This document shows, piece after piece, positions 253 to 51,324 of a DNA stretch of 64,000 nt. Position 1 is the stretch's first letter; each line of letters begins with the position of its first letter. The notes beneath the pieces are model-generated. The model had not been told where the DNA came from, did not search any database, and worked only from the letters and a program-made list of their open reading frames with translations. Position numbers and translations under genes: made by a program. Source of the DNA: Hysterium pulicare CBS 123377 (lineage: Eukaryota > Ascomycota > Dothideomycetes > Hysteriales > Hysteriaceae); the NCBI GenBank assembly GCA_000467715.1, contig AJFK01000173.1, forward strand, positions 44,739 through 108,738, in the 5' to 3' direction.

Positions 253-2916
253 ATGCCATCGTCCATCACATCTACGGCTATTGCATCTTCAGCAATGTCA
301 ATTCCAACTCCGAACACTCGACACATGAACCCCGTTTGGCCAATTGTTGCTATGGCTGTCGCAACTTTGTCTAACGAAGCTCCGATAGCCTTGTTAGCTG
401 GTCTTGCGGCTTTAGGGTATATTCTTGCACAGGCATCCGAGCAAGCTGATGATCATCTCAACTCCCTCAAACGAAAGCGGCGAACTCCATCGAAACCCGC
501 CTTGAAATTATCCAGCGTGGACCAACTGTGGCCAATAGGCGTTATTGCAATTGCAACTGTGATCAACGAGGGGTCCGTTATGCTCTTCGTAAGCGTGGCA
601 ACCTTCTTATACATCCTCGCCAAAGAACCCCCATCAAAGGAGTCAGCTCAACTTTACAACGCTTGTACAGACATTATTCTCTTTCAACCGTTTCAACAAA
701 ATGCTGAATTCAAGATGGAGAGTTACGGACCCCCCTGCACACGTGGGATGGTCAAGTCCACGGCATCGATTCTTATTCCCAGCTCCATCTACACCACGTT
801 CAAATTGATAAATGAGATTTCCTTGGTAAAGACTGGAACCCACCAATTGGAGTGGTACCAAGAAGGACTCAAAGCTGCCGTCAGCTTCTCCGAGTGGCTA
901 GAATTCCGGTGGCAGCTGTCAACCTCTCCAATTCTGCACCTCCAGGAATGGGAGGCAAAGTTTCAGTACCCGTCCACTCAACGTCCACACCTCGCAGAGT
1001 ATGCTGAAAAGGAGCTCCATAATTCCTGCGCTCTTCTGATCGGAAAGGCGCATGGAGGGAGAAAATTTATAGGAACCTTACGCACCCCCACGAGCACACC
1101 TAACAGTATATCACCCATTATATTCCCTGCTGATACGAATCAATCATTTACTAATCTCGTGACAGATGGGCCGATTCAGGTACAACATCATAATCCTTTT
1201 GATATTGCCGAGGGACTGAAGGTACTGGTCGGCCGGGATAAGATTCTGGCACGTGGCAATAATCGCCTCGGATACGACCCAGTACTTTGCGACCGAGCGC
1301 CGCCAATGAACCTGAATGGTCGCTCTGGAACCGCTACGCCAAACGTGGAAGATCTAGATGACGATGTGTTATTAGACGAAACAATCCTACAATCTCCAAC
1401 GCTAAGAGCACAAAAGCTTTCGTGTGCCGATCTCTCCTATGAAAACCATGCTATCCGACGCTATGATCCAAAATTAAGATTACCGGTTTCAGACTCATCG
1501 TCGTCTGATGAGGAGCACAGCAACCACAGCACTGTGCCGACGACCCCTGACATTATGACTAGCTCATTTCAGCATTGTTTGGCTAGTCCATCTGTCATCT
1601 ATCGCTCCCAGATTCCACTGCCTACAAGTACTTCTGAACAAGAATGGCAAAATTACAACGCGCTCAGGGTGGGAGAATATTTCTATCACCGTATGCAGTT
1701 AGCTAGGTGGAGAAACTTCAAGGATCAAGAGCGGCAAGAGCAGGACGTTGGTGAAGAGCAAGACAGTATTGGCGAGACGCAAGTTGACCAACGTCTTTGG
1801 TATGGCTTGTCAGATGAGGAGCTCTTCTCACTTCTTGAGGAACTGGTATATTATCACGATCCTATTAGCGAATTCACCCGTGAAAAGTGGCGTCTCGCAC
1901 TCGAAGTTCAACGGGGGAACACATTCCAAGCGTGGATCAAAGGAAGCACCAATGCATGGGCCTATGTGATATCAGGACCCTTAGCACAGCGGCGATATCA
2001 GAGGGCTATGCGACTCCAAGATTTGCTGAGGAACCCACCTCATACACCCAAGCCCCGTCACGGCGGAGAGATTGATCGCTTCCTCGAGATCCATAAAATT
2101 TCTCGAGCTAAGTTGGACGATGTACTCGCGATCCATTTTTCATATGGAAATGCCCGTTATTTTCTTCCACAGATTGAGGCTGGAGCTTTGACGCCAAGCC
2201 GCAAAGAATTTATCGACTTCCAATTTGCGGATCAACCGACAGCAGTCAACTCCGGACCTGATGGTGAATTCGAAGCCTCCGATTCCACCTCAATCCAACC
2301 CGGTGCTGCCAATTCAGGATACGGACAACTTCAACAACTAAAAGCCGGGTTCCAAAGCCTTGCGACACGTTACCAGCAAAATGCTCAACGCATTTGGTTA
2401 TCCAAAGCTCCACGGCCTACTCAACCGGCTGTAGCGCAGGTCTGTCATCAATATCTGCGCCAGACCTGCGGGCTAACGGCTCAACAACATGCTATAGATC
2501 CGGAGTACGAGAAATTACAACAGCTGCAGGCAGAGTATCAAGGTATTGAAGCATGTCGTCAGCAGTACGCTGGACCCGTCTACTCGGCGAAGGTTACCGC
2601 TCCCGACGTTGCGCGAGTCTGCCACGAGTACTTGAGCCAGATCTGCGCGCCACACCATATTGAGGTTACTCCTTCAGCCGTTGCACGAGCCTGCTATCAG
2701 TACTTGAACCAGGCAATAGCTGAGCCGCATCAAGATGCAATTTCTCGGCAAACGGCGCAGAAATTTGGCCTTGCGAGTCGAGTCGGTCCACCCCCTATTC
2801 CTTTCCAGACTGGCCTGCGCGCTCAGTTTCCTTTGGAATTCGCGCATATCGACGATATCCCTATGCAGGATGGTGAGATGATGTATCAAGAATTCGGATT
2901 CAGGAACCTTTGTTGA
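253..2916 (+). CDS. Unknown protein with two N-terminal hydrophobic hairpin repeats (tandem paralogue A)
   Basis: The frame is open from a TTG at 217, but the first ATG is at 253 with A at -3, giving 887 aa and no intron. Residues about 27-60 and 92-125 are two copies of one hydrophobic segment of the form WPIxxxAxATxxNExP followed by a small-residue run and YIL. The polar N-E-P/G centre suggests a membrane hairpin or two short helices (inference). Next come a charged linker, an acidic low-complexity stretch near residues 370-450, and a tail rich in aromatic and charged residues. The C-terminus holds a repeat built on VARxCxxYLxQ (about residues 693-825). The downstream gene at 4275 has the same layout, so the two are tandem paralogues. 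I do not recognise the family and assign no function. The 5' end of the locus may extend left of the window. Confidence 0.8.
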   Translation: MPSSITSTAIASSAMSIPTPNTRHMNPVWPIVAMAVATLSNEAPIALLAGLAALGYILAQASEQADDHLNSLKRKRRTPSKPALKLSSVDQLWPIGVIAIATVINEGSVMLFVSVATFLYILAKEPPSKESAQLYNACTDIILFQPFQQNAEFKMESYGPPCTRGMVKSTASILIPSSIYTTFKLINEISLVKTGTHQLEWYQEGLKAAVSFSEWLEFRWQLSTSPILHLQEWEAKFQYPSTQRPHLAEYAEKELHNSCALLIGKAHGGRKFIGTLRTPTSTPNSISPIIFPADTNQSFTNLVTDGPIQVQHHNPFDIAEGLKVLVGRDKILARGNNRLGYDPVLCDRAPPMNLNGRSGTATPNVEDLDDDVLLDETILQSPTLRAQKLSCADLSYENHAIRRYDPKLRLPVSDSSSSDEEHSNHSTVPTTPDIMTSSFQHCLASPSVIYRSQIPLPTSTSEQEWQNYNALRVGEYFYHRMQLARWRNFKDQERQEQDVGEEQDSIGETQVDQRLWYGLSDEELFSLLEELVYYHDPISEFTREKWRLALEVQRGNTFQAWIKGSTNAWAYVISGPLAQRRYQRAMRLQDLLRNPPHTPKPRHGGEIDRFLEIHKISRAKLDDVLAIHFSYGNARYFLPQIEAGALTPSRKEFIDFQFADQPTAVNSGPDGEFEASDSTSIQPGAANSGYGQLQQLKAGFQSLATRYQQNAQRIWLSKAPRPTQPAVAQVCHQYLRQTCGLTAQQHAIDPEYEKLQQLQAEYQGIEACRQQYAGPVYSAKVTAPDVARVCHEYLSQICAPHHIEVTPSAVARACYQYLNQAIAEPHQDAISRQTAQKFGLASRVGPPPIPFQTGLRAQFPLEFAHIDDIPMQDGEMMYQEFGFRNLC
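331..630 (+). repeat. Internal duplication: two hydrophobic segments in paralogue A
   Basis: Copy 1 is encoded at about 331-432 and copy 2 at about 520-630, separated by a basic linker. Both share the pattern W-P, a hydrophobic run, A-T, hydrophobic-N-E, then a small/hydrophobic run ending Y-I-L-A. The second copy has drifted more (N-E-G-S instead of N-E-A-P). Confidence 0.7.
2325..2720 (+). repeat. C-terminal protein repeat (VARxCxxYLxQ units)
   Basis: Unit 1 (about 2325-2470) and unit 2 (about 2509-2646) both run from LQQLxA to a VAxVCHxYLxQxC core. A third, shorter unit (about 2665-2720) has the core only, as AVARACYQYLNQA. The conserved C, Y and L at fixed spacing suggest a small helical unit amplified in place. 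Confidence 0.65.
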
Positions 2917-4274
2917 CCACTGTATACCCCTTTCAGACCTTCCAGGATGATTGGTCTGGGTTCTGTGAGACGCATCAAAGAGCTTTCGCAACCGTAAGCG
3001 TTGCCTACTTGGTCCCAGTATTTCGTTACTGTCTTTAAAAACTTTAGCTTGGGAAAAAGATTCACCGGTATTTATATAGACTGAATACTCCAGGCTGTGA
3101 GCACACAAATTAGTGCCTGAATCATATAATAACCTTTGATTATCAATTCTACTGTAAGGTGATCCTGGTATATGGATGGATTTCGAAATCCCATGCCAAC
3201 CATGTGATTGGTTCGGTGCATAGTTCCCCCGCTCCGTATCCCACATCCATCCATCCCTTTCTCTGAACTCTCTACTTCTCTAGCATTTGCACACGATATC
3301 TTCCACAATATGTGATAAATGGAAACGTGAATGTATTGAGTCTTTGCCTATCTAATGATTCTTTGATGAATCTGTCGATTTTTTCCGACCAGCTACGGAT
3401 GCCATTCGTTTTGCGGTGTGCCTTCACAATGATCGACTTCCACCTTCCTCGTTATCCGAAGGCCAACGATGATCCAGCTTTGACCCTTCTGGAAAAGTAC
3501 AACAGGATACTATCGCTTTGCCTTGAAATGAATTCCCAGGTCGCCGTCTATGATAAACTTAATACACGTTGACCTGCGGTCCTTCGAAATTGAACATTTC
3601 TCCTCCCGTCTGCTACAAGATAGAGTTACTATGCTATTTTACAGGCCTGCCTCAAGTTTCAACGTGCCTTTAAAGCCTGTCACGAAGCCCAAATGATGTA
3701 GGTAGGCTGGAACAAAAGAACAACAGATTAGGAGACTCAGGTCCTCAATTTTAAGTTTACCCTTTTCAAGTCGTCATGCCTCCCTTCACTTCTTTGTGGG
3801 TTCTCTTACCTACGTCAATCTTGATGACTTCTTTATACAGGAACACGGTATTCAAAGCCCAATTGCATGAGATTTGGCAGCCAATAACCTTCGGGATATA
3901 TCGCTACGTGCATCAATCGAGTTTTCTACTACTAATTGTATATTTACATAGCTCTAAGTCTCCTTGCCTTAGTTATGTATGACATGCCCTTCGTTGTACG
4001 TGTACAGTTCTGACGATGTACTTTCACTTCTTGGCGTGGGCGGGGGCTGTGATTAGTCCGGCGCATATTTCTTCCGCTCCGTACACGTTATTCACGCCTT
4101 TCACTTAGAACCGTCCCTGCAAAATAGTGATCCGGTTCCACTTCAGCCTATATTTTCCCTCGTAGGTGCTCTACTTTCTTCTGCATTTCATTTCATTTGA
4201 ATCAACCAGACTCCACCGACAACAAATCAACCCGAGTCTCTGTCTTACCGAATACTTTTGCTCTATCTACCAGT
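2917..4274 (+). other. Intergenic region between the paralogues, with a duplicated promoter segment
   Basis: No full gene is visible. Bases about 3203-3300 and about 4049-4190 resemble each other (TGTGATT..GT.CGG.GCATA..TTC..CCGCTCCGTA, then CTCTACTT.TCT..GCATTT). The second copy is the proximal promoter of the gene at 4275. The first stands in front of a short open frame (3366-3572). A TATATTTT match at about 4149-4156 could serve the 4275 gene. Confidence 0.5.
3366..3572 (+). pseudogene. Possible remnant of a third paralogue (68 codons)
   Basis: The frame opens at a GTG at 3312. The first ATG is at 3366 and gives 68 aa (starting MNLSIFSDQL). It lies just downstream of a diverged copy of the 4275 gene's promoter, so it sits where a gene copy would start. 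The peptide itself does not clearly match either neighbour's N-terminus. It may be a truncated copy, an unrelated small gene, or chance. Confidence 0.25.
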
Positions 4275-7256
4275 ATGTCAACTTCGCTTGCCAACTCGTT
4301 GGCCACGTCGACGCCCCCCTCGACCATGTCAGTGCCAACACCGAAAGTACAATCAAAGAAGGCTCTTTGGCCTGTCCTTGCGGTGGCTATCGCCACTCTT
4401 ACAAACGAACCACCGCTCGTTCTCGCTGCCAGCATGGCCGCTTTGGGCTACTTGTTTACTACAGTATCCAAGCACCCTGACCGTCTTCGTCCACTAAATT
4501 TCCCTGATGCGGAGTTGCGTCCACCGTCCAAGCCTCCGCTAAAGCCAAAAAACATGGACACTATCTGGCCAGTATTGGTTGTCGCGCTGGCGACTCTTGT
4601 CAATGCACCCCCTGTCGTCCTGGCAGCCGGTGTCGCAGCACTTTTCTACATAATGACGGCAAAGTTAGAAGATGTAGTAGACCAGGTTACCACCTCTCAG
4701 CAACTTGTAGTCACGAGGCCTCTTCGATGTTCTCCACAAATCGAAGAAATATCGGTGCTCAAGACCACCATCCTTCTACAAAGTACTATCGTTAAATCCT
4801 TCCGTCTACCTGCGTCGGCCTCCTCTCCACGAAAAAACCCACTACTCCTGGAGTGGTACGATGAGAGTTTGCCATTAAAAGACAACATCTCCAACTATGC
4901 AGACTCCGCGCTTCAGCTTCCGACAAAGTTTTCCCTTGGGATTCAGGCTTGGATCATAAAGTTTGGCATACTCAGAGTCCATTCCACGATCTTCATACGA
5001 ATTGATCCGGACTCCCCTGACAGCCAACAGGACTCTGGTTCAGAGCGAATTGGAGAAGCCAAGAGTACAGCACCCACTACTCCTGACCTCAGTGTTGTGC
5101 CAAAAAGTCGTCCCAACCAACCTCAGCGAGCTATCGAGCTCACCAATCCTATATATGATAGACGTCCAGCCAAGGCGCTTAACTCGAATCCCATTGATTG
5201 GCCCAAGAATGCAGCTCCACAGTCTGTGGCGGAAGACTTTTACTTCAGCATCAACCAAGGATCAGATACGATTGGTATTGACCTTGGACCACGACGTGCG
5301 CCCTTCCTTGCCAACGAAGGCCTCCCCGTAGACTTCGCGTCGCAGCTCATGGCCGGCCAACTGCAAAAGTCGAAGAAAGTCAAGACAATCAAGACAATGA
5401 AGCCGAAGTCGAAACAAAAGGAAAAGCATTTCTGTCTGACGGAGTGTAATCTGGACTACGTGCAGTATTACGGTAAACTGACACAAGATGATCGTGCGGC
5501 TGTCCGTCAAGCCAACCGTGCTTTTGGGCGTCAGTCTGATTTCATGGACTCTCGCCCTCTTGGGCCTTTTATAAATCCGCCTGAGTATACGTGTGAGGAT
5601 CCGAGGAAGTGGGCTTTGTATTTTCTTCGCCTTCCTCCACTACGACATCAAGAAAAGGTAGAGTTCTATGCGACTCAATGGAAATTGACGAAGGAAGCAG
5701 CGCGCAAGATTCTGCTCCAAGTAGAGATTGACGAGGCAACGCAAAAAATTAACAAAGCCTTTCAGCATGGAAATCAATGGCGGTCGATTGTTTCGAAACC
5801 ACAACTTGATTCTACTCAATCAATGGGTCTATATAAGGAACAAACCGCTATTGAGACCCGCTGGCATGAACAGCAGCTTCAACTTTGGTGGAAGGCCCTG
5901 CAGCATCCGAAGACTGTATCGAATGCTCACACTGAATGGGACCCGAACCGATACGACCCATTCGAATCTCCGGAAGACTTTTTGAAGATGTTGCGAGTCT
6001 ATCAAGATGCACATCTTCCCGATCCGGAACGCTTGATGCTTCAAAAGGCGTACGCCGACTACCTGCGGCTGGGATCAATTGTCGCAATTCTCAAGGAGAA
6101 TTACGTCTGCCCTAATATCGCACCCACGGGCGAGCTATTCCTACGACGACGCGAGACGCAAGCCGAACAACTTTGCAACGAGGGAATGGAACAAGGACCT
6201 GAGAAACTTCCCTCTCTAAGTCCTGAAATAATGCCTCAATCCGCTGCACCTATACTCCAGCGTACCGGAGCTGCCTTCGCTGACAAGTACTCATTTGTTC
6301 GCCAGCTAGATTATAGCAACGACAAGTTCACAGAAACTCGTCAAAAGTGGGCGCAGATTTTCCCTTACAACGACACCAACATCCCGGAACAGCTCCGGCC
6401 ATTTGATCCGTTCTGCGATCCAAATGTCATTCGCAGCCTGATCGGATGGGCCACATGTCTAGAGAATGAGCGCCAAACGATCATGGCGCATGGCCTTCCC
6501 GAACAAAGCCTGGAAGAGCGACGGAAGACGTACCAGGGGAGCATCGAACGTTTCCTCGGTATCGATGACCCCATGCGAGTGTTTATTAGTCAACAGGCTG
6601 CTGCGCGCGGAGAGATGGTTGTTGATATCGACAAGCAGTACACAGTTCAACGAGCAGCTGAAGTTGAGCGTATGGAACGTCTCCGGATGCGGAACACGCC
6701 GCAGGTACCCGATACTTCTTCAAATATCCCCGCTCAACATCAAACACGTCAGACTCGGCCTGCTCGTGTGGCTCCACGCCAGAGACGCTGGAATGCTCCT
6801 GCCGCAATCCAGCTGCCCTCCTTTCAACCTCCTGTTGCAGCCCCAGCTACGCACATCAATCCTCCAACGGCAAACCAGTTCGAAGATGCTTTTCAGCACG
6901 AGGCCAATAAGCCGAGCAATGCGCCTAAGCTGAATCAGTACGCCGTGCCTGTCCCTCCGGTTTTTGGGAACAAATTCGATACTGCGCCACGTCTTATCAA
7001 GAGCACTAGACGGGAAGGGAAGAAGTCTCGATTCTTTCCCACAACGCAAAGCCGGTCTGAAGATGCTTCCCAGGCCGAGGCCAATATATCTACCAACGGA
7101 CCCAGCCAGACTCAGCAGCTTGTCCATGTTCCTCCGGGCTTTGAGAGCACGTTCGGTCCTGCTCCCCGTGTTATCAATAGCAGCAAGCAGGAAGGGCAGG
7201 GTGGAGGTGTTCTTAGCAACATGCAATACCGGAAGAAGTCCCGATTCTTCCCGTAA
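4275..7256 (+). CDS. Unknown protein with two N-terminal hydrophobic hairpin repeats (tandem paralogue B)
   Basis: The frame opens at a TTG at 4197. The first ATG is at 4275 with A at -3, giving 993 aa and no intron. A second ATG at 4325 is aligned with an internal ATG of paralogue A (MSVPTPK versus MSIPTPN). Residues about 29-65 and 96-130 are two close copies of WPVLxVAxATLxNxPPxVLAA..AALxY. Other shared blocks with paralogue A include an LEWY(D/Q)E motif near residue 190 and an (I)(E/D)RFLxI motif in the C-terminal half. A K-rich stretch lies near residues 370-385. The C-terminus is a duplicated module ending KKSRFFP. The family is not recognised; a membrane-anchored soluble protein is the simplest reading. 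Confidence 0.8.
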   Translation: MSTSLANSLATSTPPSTMSVPTPKVQSKKALWPVLAVAIATLTNEPPLVLAASMAALGYLFTTVSKHPDRLRPLNFPDAELRPPSKPPLKPKNMDTIWPVLVVALATLVNAPPVVLAAGVAALFYIMTAKLEDVVDQVTTSQQLVVTRPLRCSPQIEEISVLKTTILLQSTIVKSFRLPASASSPRKNPLLLEWYDESLPLKDNISNYADSALQLPTKFSLGIQAWIIKFGILRVHSTIFIRIDPDSPDSQQDSGSERIGEAKSTAPTTPDLSVVPKSRPNQPQRAIELTNPIYDRRPAKALNSNPIDWPKNAAPQSVAEDFYFSINQGSDTIGIDLGPRRAPFLANEGLPVDFASQLMAGQLQKSKKVKTIKTMKPKSKQKEKHFCLTECNLDYVQYYGKLTQDDRAAVRQANRAFGRQSDFMDSRPLGPFINPPEYTCEDPRKWALYFLRLPPLRHQEKVEFYATQWKLTKEAARKILLQVEIDEATQKINKAFQHGNQWRSIVSKPQLDSTQSMGLYKEQTAIETRWHEQQLQLWWKALQHPKTVSNAHTEWDPNRYDPFESPEDFLKMLRVYQDAHLPDPERLMLQKAYADYLRLGSIVAILKENYVCPNIAPTGELFLRRRETQAEQLCNEGMEQGPEKLPSLSPEIMPQSAAPILQRTGAAFADKYSFVRQLDYSNDKFTETRQKWAQIFPYNDTNIPEQLRPFDPFCDPNVIRSLIGWATCLENERQTIMAHGLPEQSLEERRKTYQGSIERFLGIDDPMRVFISQQAAARGEMVVDIDKQYTVQRAAEVERMERLRMRNTPQVPDTSSNIPAQHQTRQTRPARVAPRQRRWNAPAAIQLPSFQPPVAAPATHINPPTANQFEDAFQHEANKPSNAPKLNQYAVPVPPVFGNKFDTAPRLIKSTRREGKKSRFFPTTQSRSEDASQAEANISTNGPSQTQQLVHVPPGFESTFGPAPRVINSSKQEGQGGGVLSNMQYRKKSRFFP
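4361..4665 (+). repeat. Internal duplication: two hydrophobic segments in paralogue B
   Basis: The copies are at about 4361-4470 and 4561-4665, and they are closer to each other than the pair in paralogue A. Both carry WPVL, ATL, N-x-P-P, VLAA and AAL-x-Y landmarks at matching spacing. They are joined by a linker containing a PPSKPPLKPK segment, which paralogue A also has as a TPSKPALK segment. Confidence 0.75.
6883..7254 (+). repeat. C-terminal tandem duplication ending KKSRFFP
   Basis: Two consecutive modules (about 6883-7044 and 7057-7254) each run from a F/SEDA..EAN block through VPP.F...F..APR.I to KKSRFFP. The second copy contains extra residues before its KKSRFFP, which are the last residues of the protein. 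Confidence 0.75.
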
Positions 7257-9780: not shown

Positions 9781-12700
9781 ATGCCACCGCCCAAGCCCGG
9801 ACAGCCAGGCACAGCCGAAGGGAAGCCCAAACGCCGACAAGGGCATAGGCAACCTAACAAGAATGGAAAGACAATTGCCACCGATGAGCAGGTAAGTATA
9901 ATCATGAAGTATAATGAGATAAGAATCACTGACCGTATTCCAGGTCAACGAGACGGTTCCCGAAAAGGCTCTGTCCTATGAAGGGTCCAAGGGAAAGCGC
10001 AAACGTCGCCGAGGGCGTAAGAGATCTAATAAAAAGGACAAGACAACTGCCGTCAATGGAGAGCAGGTAAGTATAATCATGAAGTATAATGAAATAAGAA
10101 TCATTGACCGTTATCCAGGTTGACAAGATGATTCTCGAAGAGAATGAGTCCCCTGAAGCGACCGAAGTGTCTGCTGTGACGACATTTCCTCCCACGACTT
10201 CACCTTCAACGGCGTCTCCTACAACATCCTCTCTTACAACATCCTCTCCTACAACATTCTCTCCTACAATATCCTCTCCTACAACATTCTCTTCTACAAC
10301 ATCCTCTCCTACAACATCTTCAACGAGGTGTTCACTGGGACATCAAGAGATGACTGCCCCTGTTCCTCAGATGTTCGCATCTGTCAACATGAACGCTATG
10401 TTGTTGAAGATGGATAAAGCCCTCGCAAACTTCCACGAGAGCAAATCCGAAGTTGAGGAGGCTCGAGATATGTTGTCGATGTTGATCCATGGTGCAATTG
10501 TTCCGCCCCAAGCTGAATCAGACGCCCAGTCTCAATCAGAGGTCCGGCTCGTCGCCTCAACGATGCCTGCCGAGAATAAATCGCGTCCCGTCTATGATGG
10601 CAACAGCGAACAAGTCATCATTAAGATCGGCCAGCAGACTCCGAATGTCATCTTCCCTGCAGCTTCTACAGCTCAGACGGCTGCGGTAGTAGCTGGGCCT
10701 CCTGTCATTACTGAAGAGATTGTGCCAACTGCATCGAAGTCTGAGAAGTCAGCTGCTTTGCCACAAGAGGGAACTATACCGAACGATAGGCCTTCCGGTG
10801 AACACTCTGGCGGTTCACAGGTAGAGGAAGTTGGCCCAGTGGCGTCAAGTGATGCTCTAGAGGAAGATGTCAAGATCGTTTCAACAAGCAATCCCCCCAC
10901 TGGAACTATCCAGGATGAGCAGACTGGCTCATTAACATCGACGCTTAATGGATCTGCAAACGACTTCGAGAATGCTGAGCTTAGCTGCCAACCGCATCAG
11001 CCGACTTTTGAGTCTCTCATCCAGACTGGAGATGATGAGCCACATGCTGAGAATCCAGAAATGGCAGTTGTGCTCTTCATCTCTAAAGAGACTGTGACTT
11101 ACGGCAGCCACTTCCAAGAGGATAGGCGTTTAACAACGAGTTTGGCAGGTACCGTTGGTAGTGAACATCAGCCAGGGAAACTGGACGACCAGGCAGTCAT
11201 CATCTTTTTGATCCCCTTTGGCGACATCCTGAATCAATCCATGAAGAATCGAGTGATCGGAACTACATTAACTGCTTCCACGTCTTATGGAAACGTTAGT
11301 ACCTCGCAGGATCTTGCGTCGACCGATGCCCCATCTACATCATCCACTGGCCGTAGCGACGAACAGCTAAATGAAGAGCGTTCAATTCATCACGCAGGAA
11401 AGGAACTTGTCTTATTCAAAGATACGAATGAACCCGACTCTCATGATGATGAAGTTGAAGAGAATCAACATTATACGATGAACCCGGCGACCGACGCGGA
11501 TGGTGAGAGTTTTCAATTGGATGAAGATACCACAACACGCCGGGAGGACGAAGACGCTCCTACCGAGGATGAAGACGCTCCCGAGAACGGGGACGCCCCT
11601 ATCGAGAACGAAAAAGCTCCACGTTGGGTTTACGTTTGGGAAGGGCAGCCCCAAAACATCACCAACGACGTTCGAGCATACTACAGAGAAATGGATATCT
11701 ACGTCGACCGGGCGTACTATATACGCCATATCAAAGAACATGAGAAGCAGCGGCGTCAAGTATTCCTACTTGGGCAGATGTGGGAGGCAACATGGGAACT
11801 TAAGCTGCGTGACGAAGGCTTCCAACGGATAGTGCATTTTTATGGTGTTGCGGAGCTGAAGAAGGAGGCTAAGAAGATGTTCCCGGCAAGTTTGGCACGT
11901 ATCTTCGGGTCCGAGAACGCAACCACACTTGGCAAAATTCTGGACAGTATTAAGGAAGCTGCTACACTGCAGGCGCGCCAAGAAGCGCTGCAAGATTGGA
12001 GTCGGAAGATTGAGTCCTTAACCGATATCGACGTTACTCTGGGTGAGGGTGAGCTAGGGAAAGAAACGATCAAGAGATATGGCACTGAATACGTGCTCAA
12101 AACCATTTCTCCGAACTTGGATCTGACTCGAGCCACTCAGACCCAGATCAAGAGAATTCAGAGAAGAATTAAGGACCTGATCGGGGCAGAAGGCGACTTG
12201 TACTACGACCTGGAAGATGCAAAGGCCAAATTCGAACGCGAGAATAAGATTATACGCCAGGTCATCGTTCCAGAGATCAAGGCAGGAATTGACTTCGAGC
12301 GACGAAGAAATGCTGCGGGTCGTATCATCGGCCTTGGGATGGGAGAAACTAGAACAGCTGTCATTGGCGAAGCTCTCTCCCAGAACGAAGCAGAGATTTT
12401 CAATCCTTTCCCTCCCGCCAGCGAATTTCTCAACCCATCACATACTATCACGCAATATGATGTCGATGCTCTAGAAACGGTCGAAGAACTACTCCAGGGC
12501 ATTCGGCGTTCTTCAGGGCACAGGAACTCGGTGTCATCTTACAGTTTTGTCGGTTCGGTCCCAAATGAGATCCAAGAAGAAGCTGAGCGATTATCAACCA
12601 CCACCAAAACCACCATCAAACCAGCTGTGGATTTCGCAGAACTTGGGTGGGCTTATGCCAACGCTCGTGCAAACTTTAGTGCCGTTTTGCCCGTCATCAG

Positions 12701-15700
12701 CCCACAAGACATTCGACAACTGCCGGCAAGACATGAAGAATCTTCTCCGGTTCCAAATACGTCTTGGGGTTCGCCGCGATTCATACTTCCACAAAATCCG
12801 GCAATGGGACGTCCAAAATTCAGAATTCCACCATGCTTTCCAGGATTGTTCTCTGGCCTGCCTCAGAAACTCGGTTTTAAGGTCGGATGGACTACATGGG
12901 AATTTCGACCATGTTCACATGGATTCGTAGATCGCGACAATCCTCAACCGTGCCCTTCTTTTGATTCAGGACCGGACCATATGGCTGGTACAGAAAATGA
13001 GTCATCGTCTTGTTCATCGTCTTGCTCATCCGCTCAACGCTGCTTGTCAATTGGAAACTTTGGCTGGCTGCGAGGGAACGACAAGGATGAAGGAGCAGCA
13101 GAAGCTCCTCAATCAACTGCATCTCCAACAGTCCAGCCGCTTCCTTCGGCCTCCGGTCCGATGCTAAATTCATCAAGTGCACCGATGACTTCCACTAACC
13201 ATCCTCCAGTTGTCAAACAACCTACTACAATCTTCAAAATGGATTTTGGACCGGCTATGACAGGAGCCCGTGGAGGAAACCCACGAGCTCGAGGAAAGGG
13301 GGGCCGCAACAGAACTGCCGCAACAAACTCAACCCCGTCCTCGACGCAACGACCTCTTGGCAGTCGCCTTTCGAATAGTGCGAAAGGGTTCCAAACTAAA
13401 GGTACAACTGCCAGTCAAACACACGGATTTGGCGGATTTGGAGGCTTCGGACAAAGCCAGGCATCACCCTTTGTAACGGCATCTGGACCTCCTCGCACCT
13501 TCGGGGCCCAGGAAGGCTCATTTAAGTTCACTGCTGGAGCAACGACTGTGAAGAATCCTCACCAGTCTGGTTCCTCAGGCACATTTTTTGGATCGAATCC
13601 TACCGGTAATCCATCTCCCGCCACTGCCTCCGTCTCTCCAGCAGCTCCTCCACCCCATGCTACTGGCACTCCTTCTACTAGTGCAGCCGAATCTTCGTCT
13701 CAAACCAACGTTGCACCAGACGATGAAGATGAGCATGCGGATGGAGCTTCAGACACGATTCCGATGCCCGATACGGAAGATTTCAACAATGAGCCCGTAA
13801 ATGACGAAAAATCTGCTGCTGCCAACCTGAGCTCAGAAAGTGATGGCTCAGCTAGTACAACTGTTCGCGGAGATAGGAGGATTCAGACTCCCACAACGGA
13901 CACTGAGACTGGAGTTACGTCGAAAGAACCTGATGCTACGACATCAGCAGGCCCACAACCAAAGACCCGATCAACTGGTGCAGCTCCGGCAGACAAGATC
14001 AACGTTTCAAATAAAGGGAACGTGAAGGGGGTCCTCGATGAGCGATGTCAAGATTTGGAAGCGGGCCTTCCATACCAACAAATTGCTCCGGAATTCTATT
14101 ACACCGGCGAGGAAGACGAAGATGCTCCCAAACCCCGAATGGATGCACCCGGCAATACATCTAGCCTACCAAGCGGGCCACTTGCCAAAGAAGAATCGAC
14201 GGCCTCAGACACGGAGAATCAAGAAGATGTTGCCGCGAGCGAAGAGGATGATGCTAGCGAGGACGGCGAGGATGATGACGAACTCTCCAGCCATGATTCG
14301 GACGACGAAAGCGACGAGGATGATGACGATGCTCCTCCAAGCGGCGGAGCAACTACAGCTTCAGCCCCGCAGTCGAGCGATAACCATCAAGATGGCAACG
14401 GCGACCATAGCGAGTCGACCGGTCAGCATCGTGAAGCAGGTCATGGTGAGGACGTTGGAGAATCTTCGAAGCCGGCATCAACAGACTCAACTTCCAAGGA
14501 GCAAGACACGCCGGCCAATGACCAGCAAATCCTAGATGATGCCCAGGTACCTGGTTCTCCCAAGCCACTTCATTCAGCGCAAGAGACGGAGACCAATTTC
14601 GAAGAGGAAATTTACGCAGAGGGATTTAGTACACGACCGACTGCTACTCAAGAGACTCAAGCAACTTGGTCGAGCTACCAAGCTGGGCAGCAGAAGGCAC
14701 CGGCGTCTCACACAAAACCCATCGAAAATCTGTTTGGAGGGCCAAATCCACATACGTTCGCACCATCTCTAGCGAGCGCCGGTCCAACCCAAGGCCCTCT
14801 GGATGGAGCATCAGCAGCGCCTTCAGACATATCCAAGGCGGCGTTTAAGGCTGCTGATTGGGCTTCGATATTTGCCCCGGGATCTGATAGCAACAACCCA
14901 TTCGGGTCGGGGCTGATCAACAACCCATTCGCAAGTTCATCAAATGGAACCACGAAAGCCCGAAAGGCTCCGAAACCAAAGGCACAAGTGGCGCCCCAGC
15001 CAGCAGGCAATCCGACCTTTGGTGTCGGGGGTTCTGGAAGTAATCCATCAATAGTGGTTACACAAGGCGATTTGGGTGCAATTACCAGTGATGCCCTCAC
15101 TAGGTTCAACTTCAACATTCGCGTAGAAAAACATGCGGCATCTTTACTAACTCCTGCTGCTGCTGCGAACTTGGAGATTTCTGGCGTGAGTGACGTCCCC
15201 AAAGACGCTTCCCAAACCACTCCGAGGTTAAATGGAACGGTGAAGGAGAATGATGCGTCAACATCAACGGTGTCAAAGCCGACTTCGGAAGAGCACACTC
15301 AACCAGAGCCGACAGTGTTGTCCAATGGGAGCAACGATGATTCAAGGACAATAGATTCGATACGAGCTGCTGGAGGTTCTGAAGTGATTTTTGACCCACT
15401 CGTTGCCCCAACCACTACAATAGAGGCTCCAGAAGCGAAGTCTGAAGTTGCTAAAGACAAGGAGCCACCTTCGCGACTAACAAAGCCGAGTGCAGTGGAT
15501 CGAGCTCCGGCAGCTCCAAATTCGAAGATTATAACCTCAAACGTCTTTGGAGACTCCGATAATTCTGATGGCGCGATTGGTATCCACCTCAATCCGTTCA
15601 TAAAGTACAAGATACCTCAGATGGAAGATGAGAGTGAAGCTGGTGATGATAGCGAAGATGACGAAAATGCTGAGCCGATGCGTATCACTAAGAAGAAGCC

Positions 15701-17648
15701 TAGGGGTGGCCCTATACCTTGCACGGTTAACTTGCAGGGAAAGTATATGAGCAGAAGCAGTACGAATAAATTTCACACTGGATCAGTATCTCCGAGTCCA
15801 GTAAAGGGTGCATCTCCGACTTCAAAGCCTTCATTGGAGTCGCGACTTAGCGGCGGTACTTTCAGTCAGCCTCGTCCAGCAACAGGAGAAGAAGCCGCTG
15901 CACCCACATTGACGAAACCTTCGTTTGAGTCGAGGCTCAGTGGAGGTATTTACAGCAAGCCTCCACAAGAGGTTGCACCAACCGCCGCACCCACAACGCC
16001 AAAGCCTTCGTTCGAGTCGAGGCTTAGTGGAGGCATCCACAATGAGCTTCCTCAAGAGACAGCACAAGCCGCTGAATCCACAACGATAAAACCATCGTTT
16101 GAGTCGAGGCTCAATGGAGGCATCTCCAGCCAGCTTCCTCAAACATCAGTACAGCAAATGGCTACACCGGATGTTGTGAGTCCAGAATCTTCAACGGCAG
16201 AAGCGAAGGCATCAAGAAAGCCTTTCGCGAGCCTCTACAACTTCTTACGCATCCTTGATATAGCAAGAGGCAATCAAGGCCCACCACTGGAGTTGTTGGA
16301 GACCTTCGCGACCCCAACAAGCAACGCTTCATTGGGACTAGCTACTCCAGCACCGGAAGAGAAGGCAGTCAAATACCCGTCAGAGACAACTTCGCTCTTC
16401 GCGCGCGTCCTTGGTGAGGAAAAAGCTCCCGAGGACTCAGCGGCGGAGACCTCTACAACTCCAAAGGACACTTCATCGGGCCTGAATAAGGTCGAGTCAG
16501 CAACAATTGTATCTTCTGTAGAAGCACATGATGCTCCGGAAGATGAGCATGATTCCCTTTTCGACTCGGACGGCGAGGATGAGTACAAGGAAGCTGACGA
16601 GAATGATGACGAGGGCAAAGAGAAGAAGTCTAAAGACGATGAAGGCCCCAAGGACTATAAAGGTCCAAAAGATGACGATGAAGATGGCAAAGGCAACGAC
16701 CCTGGAGCAGGCGCAGCTTCAAGCGGCAGCCACTCCAATGCTGACGACAACGCTGATAATGATACCCGTGGCTCCATTTCAGGCGGATCATCCTTCAACA
16801 ATGACCACCAATCCACTCGTCCCAGCTCCGGAGGAGGTCAGCGAGATGAGGAGGTGCAGACAAAGAAATCCCCATCTACCTCCAACAGTCGGGTAAAGTT
16901 CTGCTTCCCAGGTGATGATGACAGGGGCCTGAATTCTGATGGCGATGAGTCCGAAGATGAGGAAGCGCGTCTGAAGCTCCACGTCGGCGATTATGAGGAT
17001 AAGAACTCACCAGAAGACCAGGCTCTATCTGAGAAGATGGCACGGCTTTCTATTAAATCTCCGAAGCAGCTGTCGAGAGGCCGAGTGAAGACAGCACATA
17101 AAGCGCCCACCGAGGCCTCGACTCAACCACTACAAGACTCTCCAGCTAGCCAAGATTTCGCATCTCCATTAATGATGGGTAAAGGCAAGAAACAACCAAC
17201 AACAAGTAAGTTCCTGCAATCCGATGCCTTCCGTTCGAATGCCAACACGAAGTCAGAACTAGAACAAGATCAGCCTAAGCAGAAGCGTTCAAAAACTGCC
17301 AAGACAAAGACCAAGCTTCGAAAGAAGAAGTCTAAAGCAGTCTCGCCAGAACTCCGCGCCGCAATTGAGTACAAACAACGTCAAGTTGTTATCCTTGAGC
17401 AAACAGCGATTCAGGGAGCCGCAGATTGCCGGGGGGAAATTGGCCTCTTATCCCGGCAGGCACAAGCGTGGTACGATGATATGCAGAGCAGTATTACCGA
17501 TACTTCAACCGCTTACGAAAAGGCGGTTGCGCAAAAGAGGGTCGACGATGCTGAGCGCCGCCTTTTTAGAGTGGAAGATTACGTCGAGAAGGGGTGGAAG
17601 AAGTACGAGAAGGCTGTTGAGGAGTTGAACAGCTTGATGGGGTATTAG
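9781..17648 (+). CDS. Very large, mostly disordered repeat-rich protein (about 2587 aa)
   Basis: Predicted exons are 9781-9891, 9944-10066 and 10119-17648 (37, 41 and 2509 codons before the stop), all phase 0. The first two exons encode a basic K/R-rich N-terminus. Residues about 98-149 are a T/S/P repeat. Residues about 575-872 look like the only folded part: an aromatic, charged helical region starting near APRWVYVWEGQ with coiled-coil-like stretches. Residues about 1178-1245 are G/F-rich with several FG motifs (GFGGFGGFGQ, FFGSNP), and further NPFGSG/NPFASS motifs follow. Strongly acidic tracts lie near 1450-1485 and 2150. Four KPSFESRLSGG repeats span about 1980-2087, and the C-terminus (about 2475-2587) is basic, then coiled-coil. 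FG motifs recall nucleoporins, but no nucleoporin fold is recognised, so I make no such call. A nuclear role is plausible from composition only. Confidence 0.75.
9790..10160 (+). repeat. Tandem exon-plus-intron duplication with two near-identical 52-bp introns
   Basis: Intron 1 (9892-9943) and intron 2 (10067-10118) are both 52 bp and differ at only a few positions, near the middle and 3' end. The flanking coding sequence is also duplicated. Exon 1's end (GKPKRRQGHR...DEQ) matches exon 2's end (GKRKRRRGRK...GEQ). Exon 2's start (VNETVPEKALSYEG) matches exon 3's start (VDKMILEENESPEA). The period is about 175 bp, and introns and exons were copied as one unit. Confidence 0.85.
10185..10330 (+). 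repeat. 15-bp coding minisatellite (S-P-T-T-S/F)
   Basis: About eight imperfect copies of a 15-bp unit (TCTCCTACAACATCC-like) encode a Thr/Ser/Pro tract. Such tracts are often O-glycosylated or disordered linkers in fungi, but this protein has no signal peptide. Confidence 0.8.
15825..16145 (+). repeat. Four KPSFESRLSGG repeats of 87-90 bp
   Basis: The K-P-S core codons start at 15825, 15915, 16002 and 16089 (spacing 90, 87, 87). Each has a fixed KPS(F/L)ESRL(S/N)GG core and a variable P/Q/A-rich linker. Conservation of the core against a drifting linker suggests selection for a short linear motif. Confidence 0.8.
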
Positions 17649-47377: not shown

Positions 47378-49446
47378 TTTCCTTCAACTCATACATTTCC
47401 TTTGTTTACCTACCCAAATCATGATAGACGAGGCACTCACGAGTCTCCTTTCGATATCTCACGATGCATATGGTTTGAAACTACTTCGAAGAAGAAGATA
47501 TGGAAACCTACTGGATGGGCCTTCCGGATCTGGGAAAATCTCTCTTGAAGGATTTAAGTTTAGCATTTAGAAGCATCTATCATAGGCATTTTGCATTGCG
47601 GCGGCGCTGGAATGGGTAATTTTGGCATTTTCAATGGATGAGAAGGGAATCCCTCAAAGGCAGTTCAGATAGCATGACTTCTTAAGAGAAGATTTGAGAT
47701 AATTGAATCAGAGGATCTATTGATCTACATTCAACATTCATTCATTATGTTCGACTCTGAAATTTCACAATGTGCATCTATAACTCCTACTACCTTACTT
47801 ACTCACCGCTCCAACCTTTGAACAAAGAATATTTGAGACCGCCCAGCCTATAGCTGCATACCATGACACCTAGCCCAAGGCTTGGACGGTTCACCAGAGT
47901 TACCTCATGCACATCAAGCTCACACCGTCGCACCACAGGACCACCCAGAACCCCTCATCACACCCAGCTCGCACATTATCACCACTTAGAATTTTCTTTA
48001 TCCGGTAAGAGCAGCGTAGTATAGCTACAGCCACACTATCCCCTCGCACAAAAAAAGCCCCCAAAAGTCAGATCGCTTGCCTGCAGTGAGATTCTTGTTT
48101 GGCTCGTATTGCAGCTGTAGGTAAGAAAAGGTACGATGCACCTGCACCCCACCATGACCGGCCATGCGCCTCGCACCGCACCGCATACCCCTGGGCTGGG
48201 AAAGGAGGCCGCCTTTCGAACCGCCTTGGGGGCTGACTCTTATTTCTTCTCCTTCTCTCTGACCTTTCCTTCGAGGCTTGTTCATTGATGGATACGTACC
48301 TATCGCAATTTGTGGAGGAACAGCCGCCGTGAGTGGCTGTGTTTGTGGAGGTATGGAGGATTTTGACTATCGCTGACCGGTGGAATTTTTTGGCTTTTAA
48401 GGCCACCCATTTTGACTTCAAGGTTTACGGTTTATGGGATAGACCTGACTGGGTTTGTTGGAAACACAGCTTGCTGACTGACTGCCCAGGCTTTCTACTC
48501 GCCCTTTCCTTTTTTTCGCTTACAGATTGATGAGTTGTGAAGAGCTCCTGCAGATTTCGGTAGATATGCGTCGCGGATCATGGCAGGATGTTGGAGATTT
48601 GGTGGTGTTTCAGGTGTGCCTTGGCTGAAATGGATGTGGTTTTGGTTGGATGTCAGCGGCAAGCTGATGGGAGGCCGAAGCGAGAGTTTGGCGATGATTA
48701 AAATGAGGTTTGGAGCGGTCAGTAGTCAGCACTTTCACAATCCTCATCGCTTCTTCAACGCTACCGATTACATACCTCGTATGGGCTCCAGCCTCGTGGT
48801 GGCTGTAAATATAGACGATGATGGCATCTATCTCGCTCTGATTAACACATCCTGCCGGGGTGGCCTCACCAACAGTTGCTAGGTATCTTTCAGCTCTGCT
48901 AAGTGGCCTGCAAACTCCAACACTCTCGGGTCCTTAGAATAGCTTAATGGGACAAAAATACCACGATCACGGAAACTCGCCGACATGTTTCCAAATCCGG
49001 GCTATGCTCAGCCGTAGTATCCAGGACTATTATGTAGCTCATTGTTGGTAGACAGGTCGATCATAAACAGCCGCACTTCTCACAAGTCCTCATTCGAAGC
49101 AGCCTGCGCAACAAGATTTCTGCCTCTTCTGCCTAGAGGTAAGTTTTATGCCTGCTCGGCTCAAGGTGTATTTGTATTCGCTGTGGCAATCTATCCAAAA
49201 TCGAAACCTCGGATGATGGCCATTCATGCTTGTGTCCATCATGCACCACAATGCCACTACCGGGACTTTTTCAATGCGGCAAAGCATTGACCGCCTCAAG
49301 TGTCTGATAGGTACATTCAACAGCCACATGTAGAAAACAACGGGAACGTACCTTCCGGGGCTGGACGTTTATCGTGAAAGAAGAATCTCTGTGCTCTAAG
49401 TCTCCACTAGAAACTTTCTTCATGCTCGTCTTCCATTACTCTTTTC
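47378..49446. other. Spacer, 2.1 kb
   Basis: Only short frames without motifs are visible (up to 117 codons on the minus strand near 48.2 kb). No RNA gene or repeat was recognised. Confidence 0.4.
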
Positions 49447-51324
49447 ATGTTCATCAAGCAGGCCTTTAATGTTTTTCGGAGGACGGACTCGATTGTGGAG
49501 GAAAAGGGCGAATATGGCCACTGGGCTAGGTATAGTACTTTCTATGGACTTTTAATCACTACAACTCTTTCTTCTGTCCTCCTGTCCGCCAACTTCCTGG
49601 ACTGGTCGGCTTCTGGCTTTCTATTCCATGTCGCAACCAACCATCGCGCATCCGTGGCTCTAGCAGTCCAAACTCTATCGAGTCTGTTCGGGTTGATACA
49701 TGTCGCTGTCGTGTGTCGACTGATCAACTATGCACTACGACTACGCCTCGAAAAGGCTGAGGTTACGCTGGATGCACTCCGAACATGGGTCGATATGAGC
49801 ATACCCCGAGTCGATTGGGACTTACCACTTCGATTCTTCTTCCCGGTTCTTATCATCGTCTTTGCAAGTCTAGTTCCTCCTGCGTTATGGGCTGGTGCCA
49901 TCACTCCAATATTTGCGGCAGACGCAGCGACCAGCAGTCTCTCAATACCCAGCTACAAAGATGTGTCATTAATTAAAGAATATCCCTCTGAGATTGGGAA
50001 GACTGGGCCCTCTCTTCGAAATCAAAAGGGATTCTTTACCTATTCTGTGGGAATACAGCATATTGGCGATCTCCTTTCATCAGCTGCAGCCGCCTCAACT
50101 TCTGGCAAAGACCCCCGCGTCCATCAGAAGCATGATAACTCCCAGTTCAGCTATGTAGGCCGCTCCTACGGTGTGGGAGCGCCAGTGGGTCTCACGGATT
50201 TCCTCATCACCTCGATAGATCTTGTTGGGAGTTATAAATACCACGAGCCTGGGTATCTTGCGAACATCACTTGCATCTACAACTCGACCTCGGAGTTCAC
50301 GATCAGTGGACCTGTACAAGAATGGATATACGCGGCTGAGGGCAACCTCCCTGACTCCGTCGAGTCTCCTGAGTACTCTAATTACATCGGACATGACACT
50401 GAAGCTATCGTCGCTATCGGAGTGTCTCACAGTGAGCTATCGCCGCGGCGATATCTCGCAATCACATCAGGGCAAAGCTACGCCTTTCTAAATCAAACGC
50501 AATGCGAGTTCGATTTCACGCCCTACCTCTTCAACGTGTCGGTGGATCTGATGAATAACAACATCTCTGTGGAGCCATGGCACCCTATCCCCGACTTCAA
50601 TCCAGAAAGGAATCTTACTCGAACTGTAGTCCGACAGTTTGAGCTTCTTTCTAATGATCTTACGAACCTCTACGTATCCCTCTTAGGCGACGCATTCAAC
50701 TCCAGTATGGCAGCCTTCAACATATCTCATGCTTCTTCCTCCCGCGACCCGCTTAGTGAAGCTGATGCAACACTTGGAGGCCTTACCAATTCTATCGTCG
50801 CAATGACAGATGACATGCTCGTCGCCTACGCTAGCGCACAGCTGATGGTCGGCCACTCATTCTCAACAGCAACTGCCAAAGTTACCAAAGGGGCTCTATA
50901 CTTCGGCCAACCTGCCTTCATTTACGCCATCTTTGGACTCAATCTTGCAATTCTCGTCCTGGTCGTCGCCGAAGCATGGAGAACAAAGGGATGGAAAGCA
51001 CTAGGTCGCTTCAACTATCTCGATCCCCGCGACTTGATCGTTGCCGCTTCGAGGGGCGGCAGAGATATTGCTGATGCGGCAGATGTGGTTTCGCGGGATG
51101 AAGCGCAGAAGAAGCCGAGGAGGATGTGGTTGCTTAGTGATCCAGATGAAGGGAATGGCAGTCTTGCTGTCAAGTTGCAAGGCAAGAATAATGGACATGT
51201 TTCGATTGTGCTAGGGAGTCTAGGCAGTGTTGAAGAAGTAGATGAGGAAGAGGGGCTTAGAAAACGAGTCAACGAGAAACAGGATTTTTCGCAGGATGTC
51301 AAGACGGTTTCTGGTTGGATTTGA
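49447..51324 (+). CDS. Polytopic membrane protein with a large N-glycosylation-rich loop
   Basis: ATG at 49447, 625 aa, no intron. Hydrophobic helices are at about 33-52, 69-92, 129-149 and 489-511. Between the third and fourth lies a roughly 340-residue loop with many N-x-S/T sites (NITCIYNST, NQTQCEF, NVSVDL, NNISVEP, NLTRT, NSSMAAFNISH) and scattered Cys, so it is likely extracellular or luminal. A short cytoplasmic tail is rich in K, R, D and E. Similar architecture is seen in a large, uncharacterised family of filamentous fungi; I know of no assigned function. A cell-surface or wall-sensing role would be speculation. Confidence 0.8.
   Translation: MFIKQAFNVFRRTDSIVEEKGEYGHWARYSTFYGLLITTTLSSVLLSANFLDWSASGFLFHVATNHRASVALAVQTLSSLFGLIHVAVVCRLINYALRLRLEKAEVTLDALRTWVDMSIPRVDWDLPLRFFFPVLIIVFASLVPPALWAGAITPIFAADAATSSLSIPSYKDVSLIKEYPSEIGKTGPSLRNQKGFFTYSVGIQHIGDLLSSAAAASTSGKDPRVHQKHDNSQFSYVGRSYGVGAPVGLTDFLITSIDLVGSYKYHEPGYLANITCIYNSTSEFTISGPVQEWIYAAEGNLPDSVESPEYSNYIGHDTEAIVAIGVSHSELSPRRYLAITSGQSYAFLNQTQCEFDFTPYLFNVSVDLMNNNISVEPWHPIPDFNPERNLTRTVVRQFELLSNDLTNLYVSLLGDAFNSSMAAFNISHASSSRDPLSEADATLGGLTNSIVAMTDDMLVAYASAQLMVGHSFSTATAKVTKGALYFGQPAFIYAIFGLNLAILVLVVAEAWRTKGWKALGRFNYLDPRDLIVAASRGGRDIADAADVVSRDEAQKKPRRMWLLSDPDEGNGSLAVKLQGKNNGHVSIVLGSLGSVEEVDEEEGLRKRVNEKQDFSQDVKTVSGWI

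Follow-up and report, generated by a model that had tools for sequence, protein, structure and literature searches.

Near the left end of the window, the 64,000-nucleotide stretch of DNA that was analysed (C140:44739-108738 in the 37.2-Mb, 596-contig genome of Hysterium pulicare CBS 123377), lie two genes, P1 and P2, on the same strand. An earlier note on this DNA had reported a tandem pair of proteins, and both reading frames, uninterrupted and on the plus strand, are found where it placed them. Both begin at the earliest ATG in their open frames, and stop-free lengths of this order are expected by chance, from base composition, with probabilities of only ~8e-19 (P1) and ~2e-19 (P2). By codon usage, the true frame did not stand out in either gene, with values of -0.005 in frame versus -0.003 in frame +2 for P1, and of 0.009 versus 0.002 for P2. 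The two genes are tandem paralogues, and the pair is real and no artefact. Their features are as follows:

253-2916, + strand: gene P1, uninterrupted open reading frame of 887 aa, paralogue of P2
271-963 (aa 7-237), + strand: P1 stretch homologous to P2 (32% identity, E 9e-28)
334-429 (aa 28-59, 32 aa), + strand: P1a, first hydrophobic unit of P1, from unit alignment, shuffles and hydropathy
526-621 (aa 92-123, 32 aa), + strand: P1b, second hydrophobic unit of P1, centre N-E-G-S, without proline
2591-2712 (2591-2640 and 2663-2712), + strand: internal repeat in the P1 tail, 50-bp copies, 78% identical in DNA
4275-7256, + strand: gene P2, uninterrupted open reading frame of 993 aa
4302-4964 (aa 10-230), + strand: P2 stretch homologous to P1, from the alignment to P1
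4365-4466 (aa 31-64, 34 aa), + strand: P2a, first hydrophobic unit of P2, from unit alignment, shuffles and hydropathy
4563-4661 (aa 97-129, 33 aa), + strand: P2b, second hydrophobic unit of P2, from the same lines of evidence, with a modelled helix-break-helix
6865-7199 (6865-7022 and 7042-7199), + strand: internal repeat in the P2 tail, 158-bp copies, 69% identical in DNA

The alignment of P1 residues 7-237 with P2 residues 10-230 contains 75 identical positions out of 233. The two proteins do share their N-terminal hairpins, as had been proposed, but the homology is not confined to them and continues to residue 237 in P1 and 230 in P2. This post-hairpin stretch of about another hundred residues, taken alone, gives a P1-P2 score of 85, where 300 shuffles reach 49 at most. 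Beyond it, the remaining 650-763 residues of each protein have no detectable relation to one another, where the earlier note had described the tails as strongly diverged. The tail score is 47, against a shuffled maximum of 73 (100 shuffles); a global alignment scores 75.5, a value equalled by 31 of 200 shuffles, and the best score of a tiled alignment (51) is equalled by 3 of 20 shuffled maxima. Six pairs of tail segments were also picked by eye, and one of these, P1 500-650 with P2 660-780, exceeded all of its 500 shuffles (48 versus a maximum of 44), but was discounted because of the way in which it had been chosen. A few tail stretches have a disorder-type composition. Both tails carry internal repeats, which indicates that duplication operates inside the tails too.

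Two hydrophobic units of 32-34 residues, close to the ~33 residues first suggested, are present in each protein, separated by about 33-35 residues. The four units are homologous: all six pairs score above every shuffle (67-111 for the real pairs, while the best of 500 shuffles per pair came to 39-52), so that the proposed relationship of the copies, both within and between the proteins, is borne out. Nine residues are invariant in the four-row alignment (W, P, A, A, T, N, L, A, Y). The unit centres read N-E-A-P, N-E-G-S, N-E-P-P and N-A-P-P. Of the N-x-P centre claimed in the earlier note, the asparagine is thus present in all four units, but the strict motif in only two; a nearby proline is found in three, and P1b has none. 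The units are only moderately hydrophobic, and it is their repetition, rather than their hydropathy, that beats chance. The best 32-residue Kyte-Doolittle windows reach 1.84 and 1.63 in P1 and 1.95 and 1.44 in P2, while the maxima among 1000 shuffles per protein are 1.9 and 1.7, and by this measure only P2b exceeds all shuffles. Each protein contains two stretches of 32-36 residues that include no more than two polar or charged residues, and no other such stretch reaches 30. Hydrophobic moments are low (0.02-0.21).

The four copies also bear on the order of events. First units grouped with first units, and second with second, in 942 of 1000 bootstraps over 55 aligned columns, with 29 for each alternative grouping, which favours a doubling of the hairpin unit prior to the gene duplication. 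Running counter to this simple order, P2a and P2b form the best-scoring of the six pairs (111), and in the 35 columns of the hydrophobic core they are 60% alike, where the position-matched pairs reach 49% and 40%. This likeness could reflect conversion within P2 or a shared constraint. The shared region, compared over 225 codons, has a pN of 0.435 and a pS of 0.699 (bootstrap range of pN/pS 0.52-0.72, 300 resamples). In the first units dN is 0.40 and in the second 0.54, lower than the 0.92 of the stretch that follows them. Because dS is saturated or nearly so, and infinite for the linker, dN/dS is rough and its direction alone is meaningful.

Whole P1 or P2, searched against the genome, returned just these two genes at E<=1. 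With the 39-residue P2b unit as query, the 37.2 Mb yielded four matches at E<=10, and these are exactly P1a, P1b, P2a and P2b. A candidate third relative on contig C425, obtained with a 107-residue double-unit query, was not accepted (E 0.52, 27% identity). These searches ran through six frames, exon by exon, with only the best candidates scored, and may have passed over relatives that are interrupted by introns or have diverged far. A third copy upstream of the pair was sought by tblastn with both proteins over the window, C140:1-40000 and C140:34739-44738, which yielded nothing else below E 0.18. The proposal of local duplication holds up, in that the sole two such genes found in the genome adjoin in tandem. 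Profile searches against Pfam, NCBIfam and PHROGs returned no family at E<=1 for either protein, and P2 had no match among PDB sequences at E<=10. For P1, a single PDB match (7lsv_A, E 0.51, query residues 756-829) was not accepted. Pattern scans of viral sequences (13 fitting stretches) and of bacterial and archaeal genomes (64 fitting stretches) gave no confirmed relative, and no paper in the literature consulted was recognised as describing the family. Calling the proteins unrecognised was thus apt: neither has a clear match to a characterised family in the three profile libraries, nor a significant one among PDB sequences. Judged by this genome and the profile libraries, P1 and P2 appear to be orphans as a pair, although their style of anchor is a familiar one.

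The surroundings of the pair contain several other elements. A 36-bp element occurs between the genes in two copies that are 83% identical (3203-3238 and 4048-4083), the second some 190 bases upstream of the P2 start, and was looked for before P1 and not found there. A third copy lies at C80:146653-146683, ahead of an orphan frame of 121 aa. Its 31-base pattern has three matches in the genome, against none for a reversed control, and its 22-base core eight, against three, some of the weaker ones being followed by pyrimidine-rich DNA; the element may act as a promoter element or may be no more than a small repeat. Upstream of the window, the next large frame before P1 (7053-8546 of the piece L010 of the same contig) encodes a subtilase (Peptidase_S8, E 2.9e-21). 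Downstream, a repetitive, low-complexity open frame of 2516 codons (10098-17648) has no Pfam match at E<=0.01; a 15-bp tandem array is located at 10215-10318, and 9818-10158 holds a pair of 170-bp repeats. Another frame, of 637 aa (49411-51324), has several hydrophobic stretches by eye and likewise no Pfam match at E<=0.01.

For the structure of the unit, an AlphaFold2 model was calculated for 57 residues of P2 around P2b, with the three sister copies as alignment. It predicts a helix-break-helix fold, with helices at residues 9-27 and 30-56 and the break right after the central asparagine (mean pLDDT 72.2, pTM 0.31). The first helix is 19 residues long, counting flank, and the second 27. A Foldseek search with this model returned no PDB match at E<=10. 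The N-terminal 237 residues, modelled from a two-row alignment, gave an unreliable result (pLDDT 34.1) in which the helices break at the same places, so that the predicted hairpin stands for the single unit but not for the N-terminal region as a whole. On a simplified insertion scale, the second arm (17 residues) is insertable in all four units (-0.35 to -1.38), while the first arm (~11 residues) is scored non-insertable even in its best window (2.18 to 5.54). An insertable second arm with a poor first one fits arms of unequal length, one short and one long, better than a pair of complete spans. Net charges in P1 and P2 are +1 and +3 for the N-terminal flank, +3 in both for the linker, which carries seven K/R in each, and +0 and +1 after the units; the unit tips have charges of -1, -1, -1 and 0. 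Flanks are basic or neutral and tips acidic or neutral, a pattern that would suit a hairpin, which needs cytosolic flanks on either side. As a prediction from few data, the model, the insertion estimate and the charges together point to asymmetric hairpins, with their flanks in the cytosol, more than to single spans. Membrane anchoring by hairpins, as originally put forward, is consistent with the model, the charges and the insertion estimate, but as a low-depth prediction it is no more than plausible.

Known membrane hairpins offer parallels in layout. According to the parts of PMC12687448 and PMC11130287 that deal with them, monotopic hairpins consist of two helical segments with a kink, often with a central proline, and flanking positive charges. 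Proteins that move from the endoplasmic reticulum to lipid droplets, such as UBXD8 and the oleosins, are described there in the same terms and resemble the P1/P2 unit as modelled; P1 and P2 differ in having two tandem units instead of one and a proline in three of the four, and have no sequence match to them. Two consecutive hairpins are reported for REEP5 (PMC12687448) and for the reticulon homology domain, which is thought to sit wedge-like in the endoplasmic reticulum membrane with cytosolic termini (sections of PMC9437294 and PMC12687448), and this two-hairpin layout of reticulons and REEP/Yop1 is like that predicted for P1 and P2. In contrast to these families, the Asn-centred repeated unit is P1/P2's own, and the predicted hairpins are N-terminal, with tails of 650-763 residues. 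The reticulon (PF02453) and REEP/Yop1 (PF03134) profiles do not match P1 or P2 at E<=1, and the genome has its own genes for both on other contigs: PF02453 matches in pieces on C251 (33.3 bits, cut-off 31.8), and PF03134 (TB2/DP1/HVA22, Yop1-type) on C355 (83.1 bits). For these reasons, membership of P1 and P2 in either family is not supported, although they may work alike.

The reading that we favour, tentatively and at close to even chances, is that two wedge-like hairpins hold the proteins on the cytosolic face of a membrane and that a tandem duplication kept this anchor region while the tails evolved fast. The ancestral gene, already encoding two hydrophobic hairpins at the N-terminus, would have been duplicated in tandem, after which the anchor region would have been retained and the tails would have diverged. 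Each unit of 32-34 residues would fold into a pair of helices, with the polar turn around the Asn as the break between them, and insert as a V-shaped wedge into the cytosolic side of the membrane, most likely that of the endoplasmic reticulum or a derived compartment. The basic linker of about 33 residues would join the two wedges, the protein would be held monotopically with its N-terminus, linker and long tail all in the cytosol, and the tail might serve as a tether or scaffold. Insertion, topology, compartment and tail function are what we infer from these features.

The competitor to be taken most seriously, though unlikely, is an ordinary polytopic anchor, in which each unit crosses the bilayer either as a single kinked span, for a total of two, or as two short spans, for a total of four. 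The insertability of the 17-residue second arm alone in every unit on the simplified scale, and modelled helices of 27 and, with flank, 19 residues, would suit such spans; first arms of ~11 residues with poor insertion scores would not, and one span per unit would place the linker, with its net charge of +3 and seven K/R, on the non-cytosolic side, contrary to the positive-inside tendency. Rather improbable is an arrangement outside the membrane, with the units as hydrophobic helical hairpins that pack together or with a partner in a soluble bundle or oligomer. Helical hairpins are known in soluble bundles too, hydropathy is moderate and a single unit of the four lies above all hydropathy shuffles, but two runs of 32-36 residues per protein with at most two polar or charged residues, and moments of 0.02-0.21, argue against it.

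We give little credence to a role at the septal pore or as an organelle tether, in which the pair would be akin to the fast-evolving, partly disordered septal-pore proteins of filamentous ascomycetes and have its own membrane anchor. In the portion of PMC10023807 that describes them, disorder is frequent among the SPP proteins, some of which are specific to Pezizomycotina, and SPP and SPA proteins, like P1 and P2, are long, fast-diverging and in some cases limited to one fungal group. The tails of P1 and P2 are long and diverge fast, with internal repeats and a few disorder-type stretches; the likeness to SPP, SPA and Leashin is however general and by description, and the repeated double hairpin is absent from that description of SPP and SPA. 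That the frames are functionless (young, decaying or unexpressed) is the least credible reading of all: scans of the own genome and of viral, bacterial and archaeal genomes found no relatives outside the pair and the codon-usage test is uninformative, but two long frames have stayed uninterrupted and nonsynonymous change is below synonymous change in the shared region.

Overall, the hairpin-anchored pair is plausible, yet as an example of a duplicated gene that evolves fast it is fairly ordinary. A bolder version is a long shot: P1 and P2 would represent a separate class of tandem hairpin anchor, built from repeats and without relation to the reticulons, whose doubled Asn-centred unit of ~33 residues is a membrane-bending or membrane-sorting module, followed by whole-gene duplication and quickly diversifying tails, perhaps for strain or species recognition. 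If the anchor is real, it would be a second, independently built two-hairpin membrane anchor beside the reticulon domain, and the pair would illustrate that a duplicated gene can retain its address label and replace nearly everything else.
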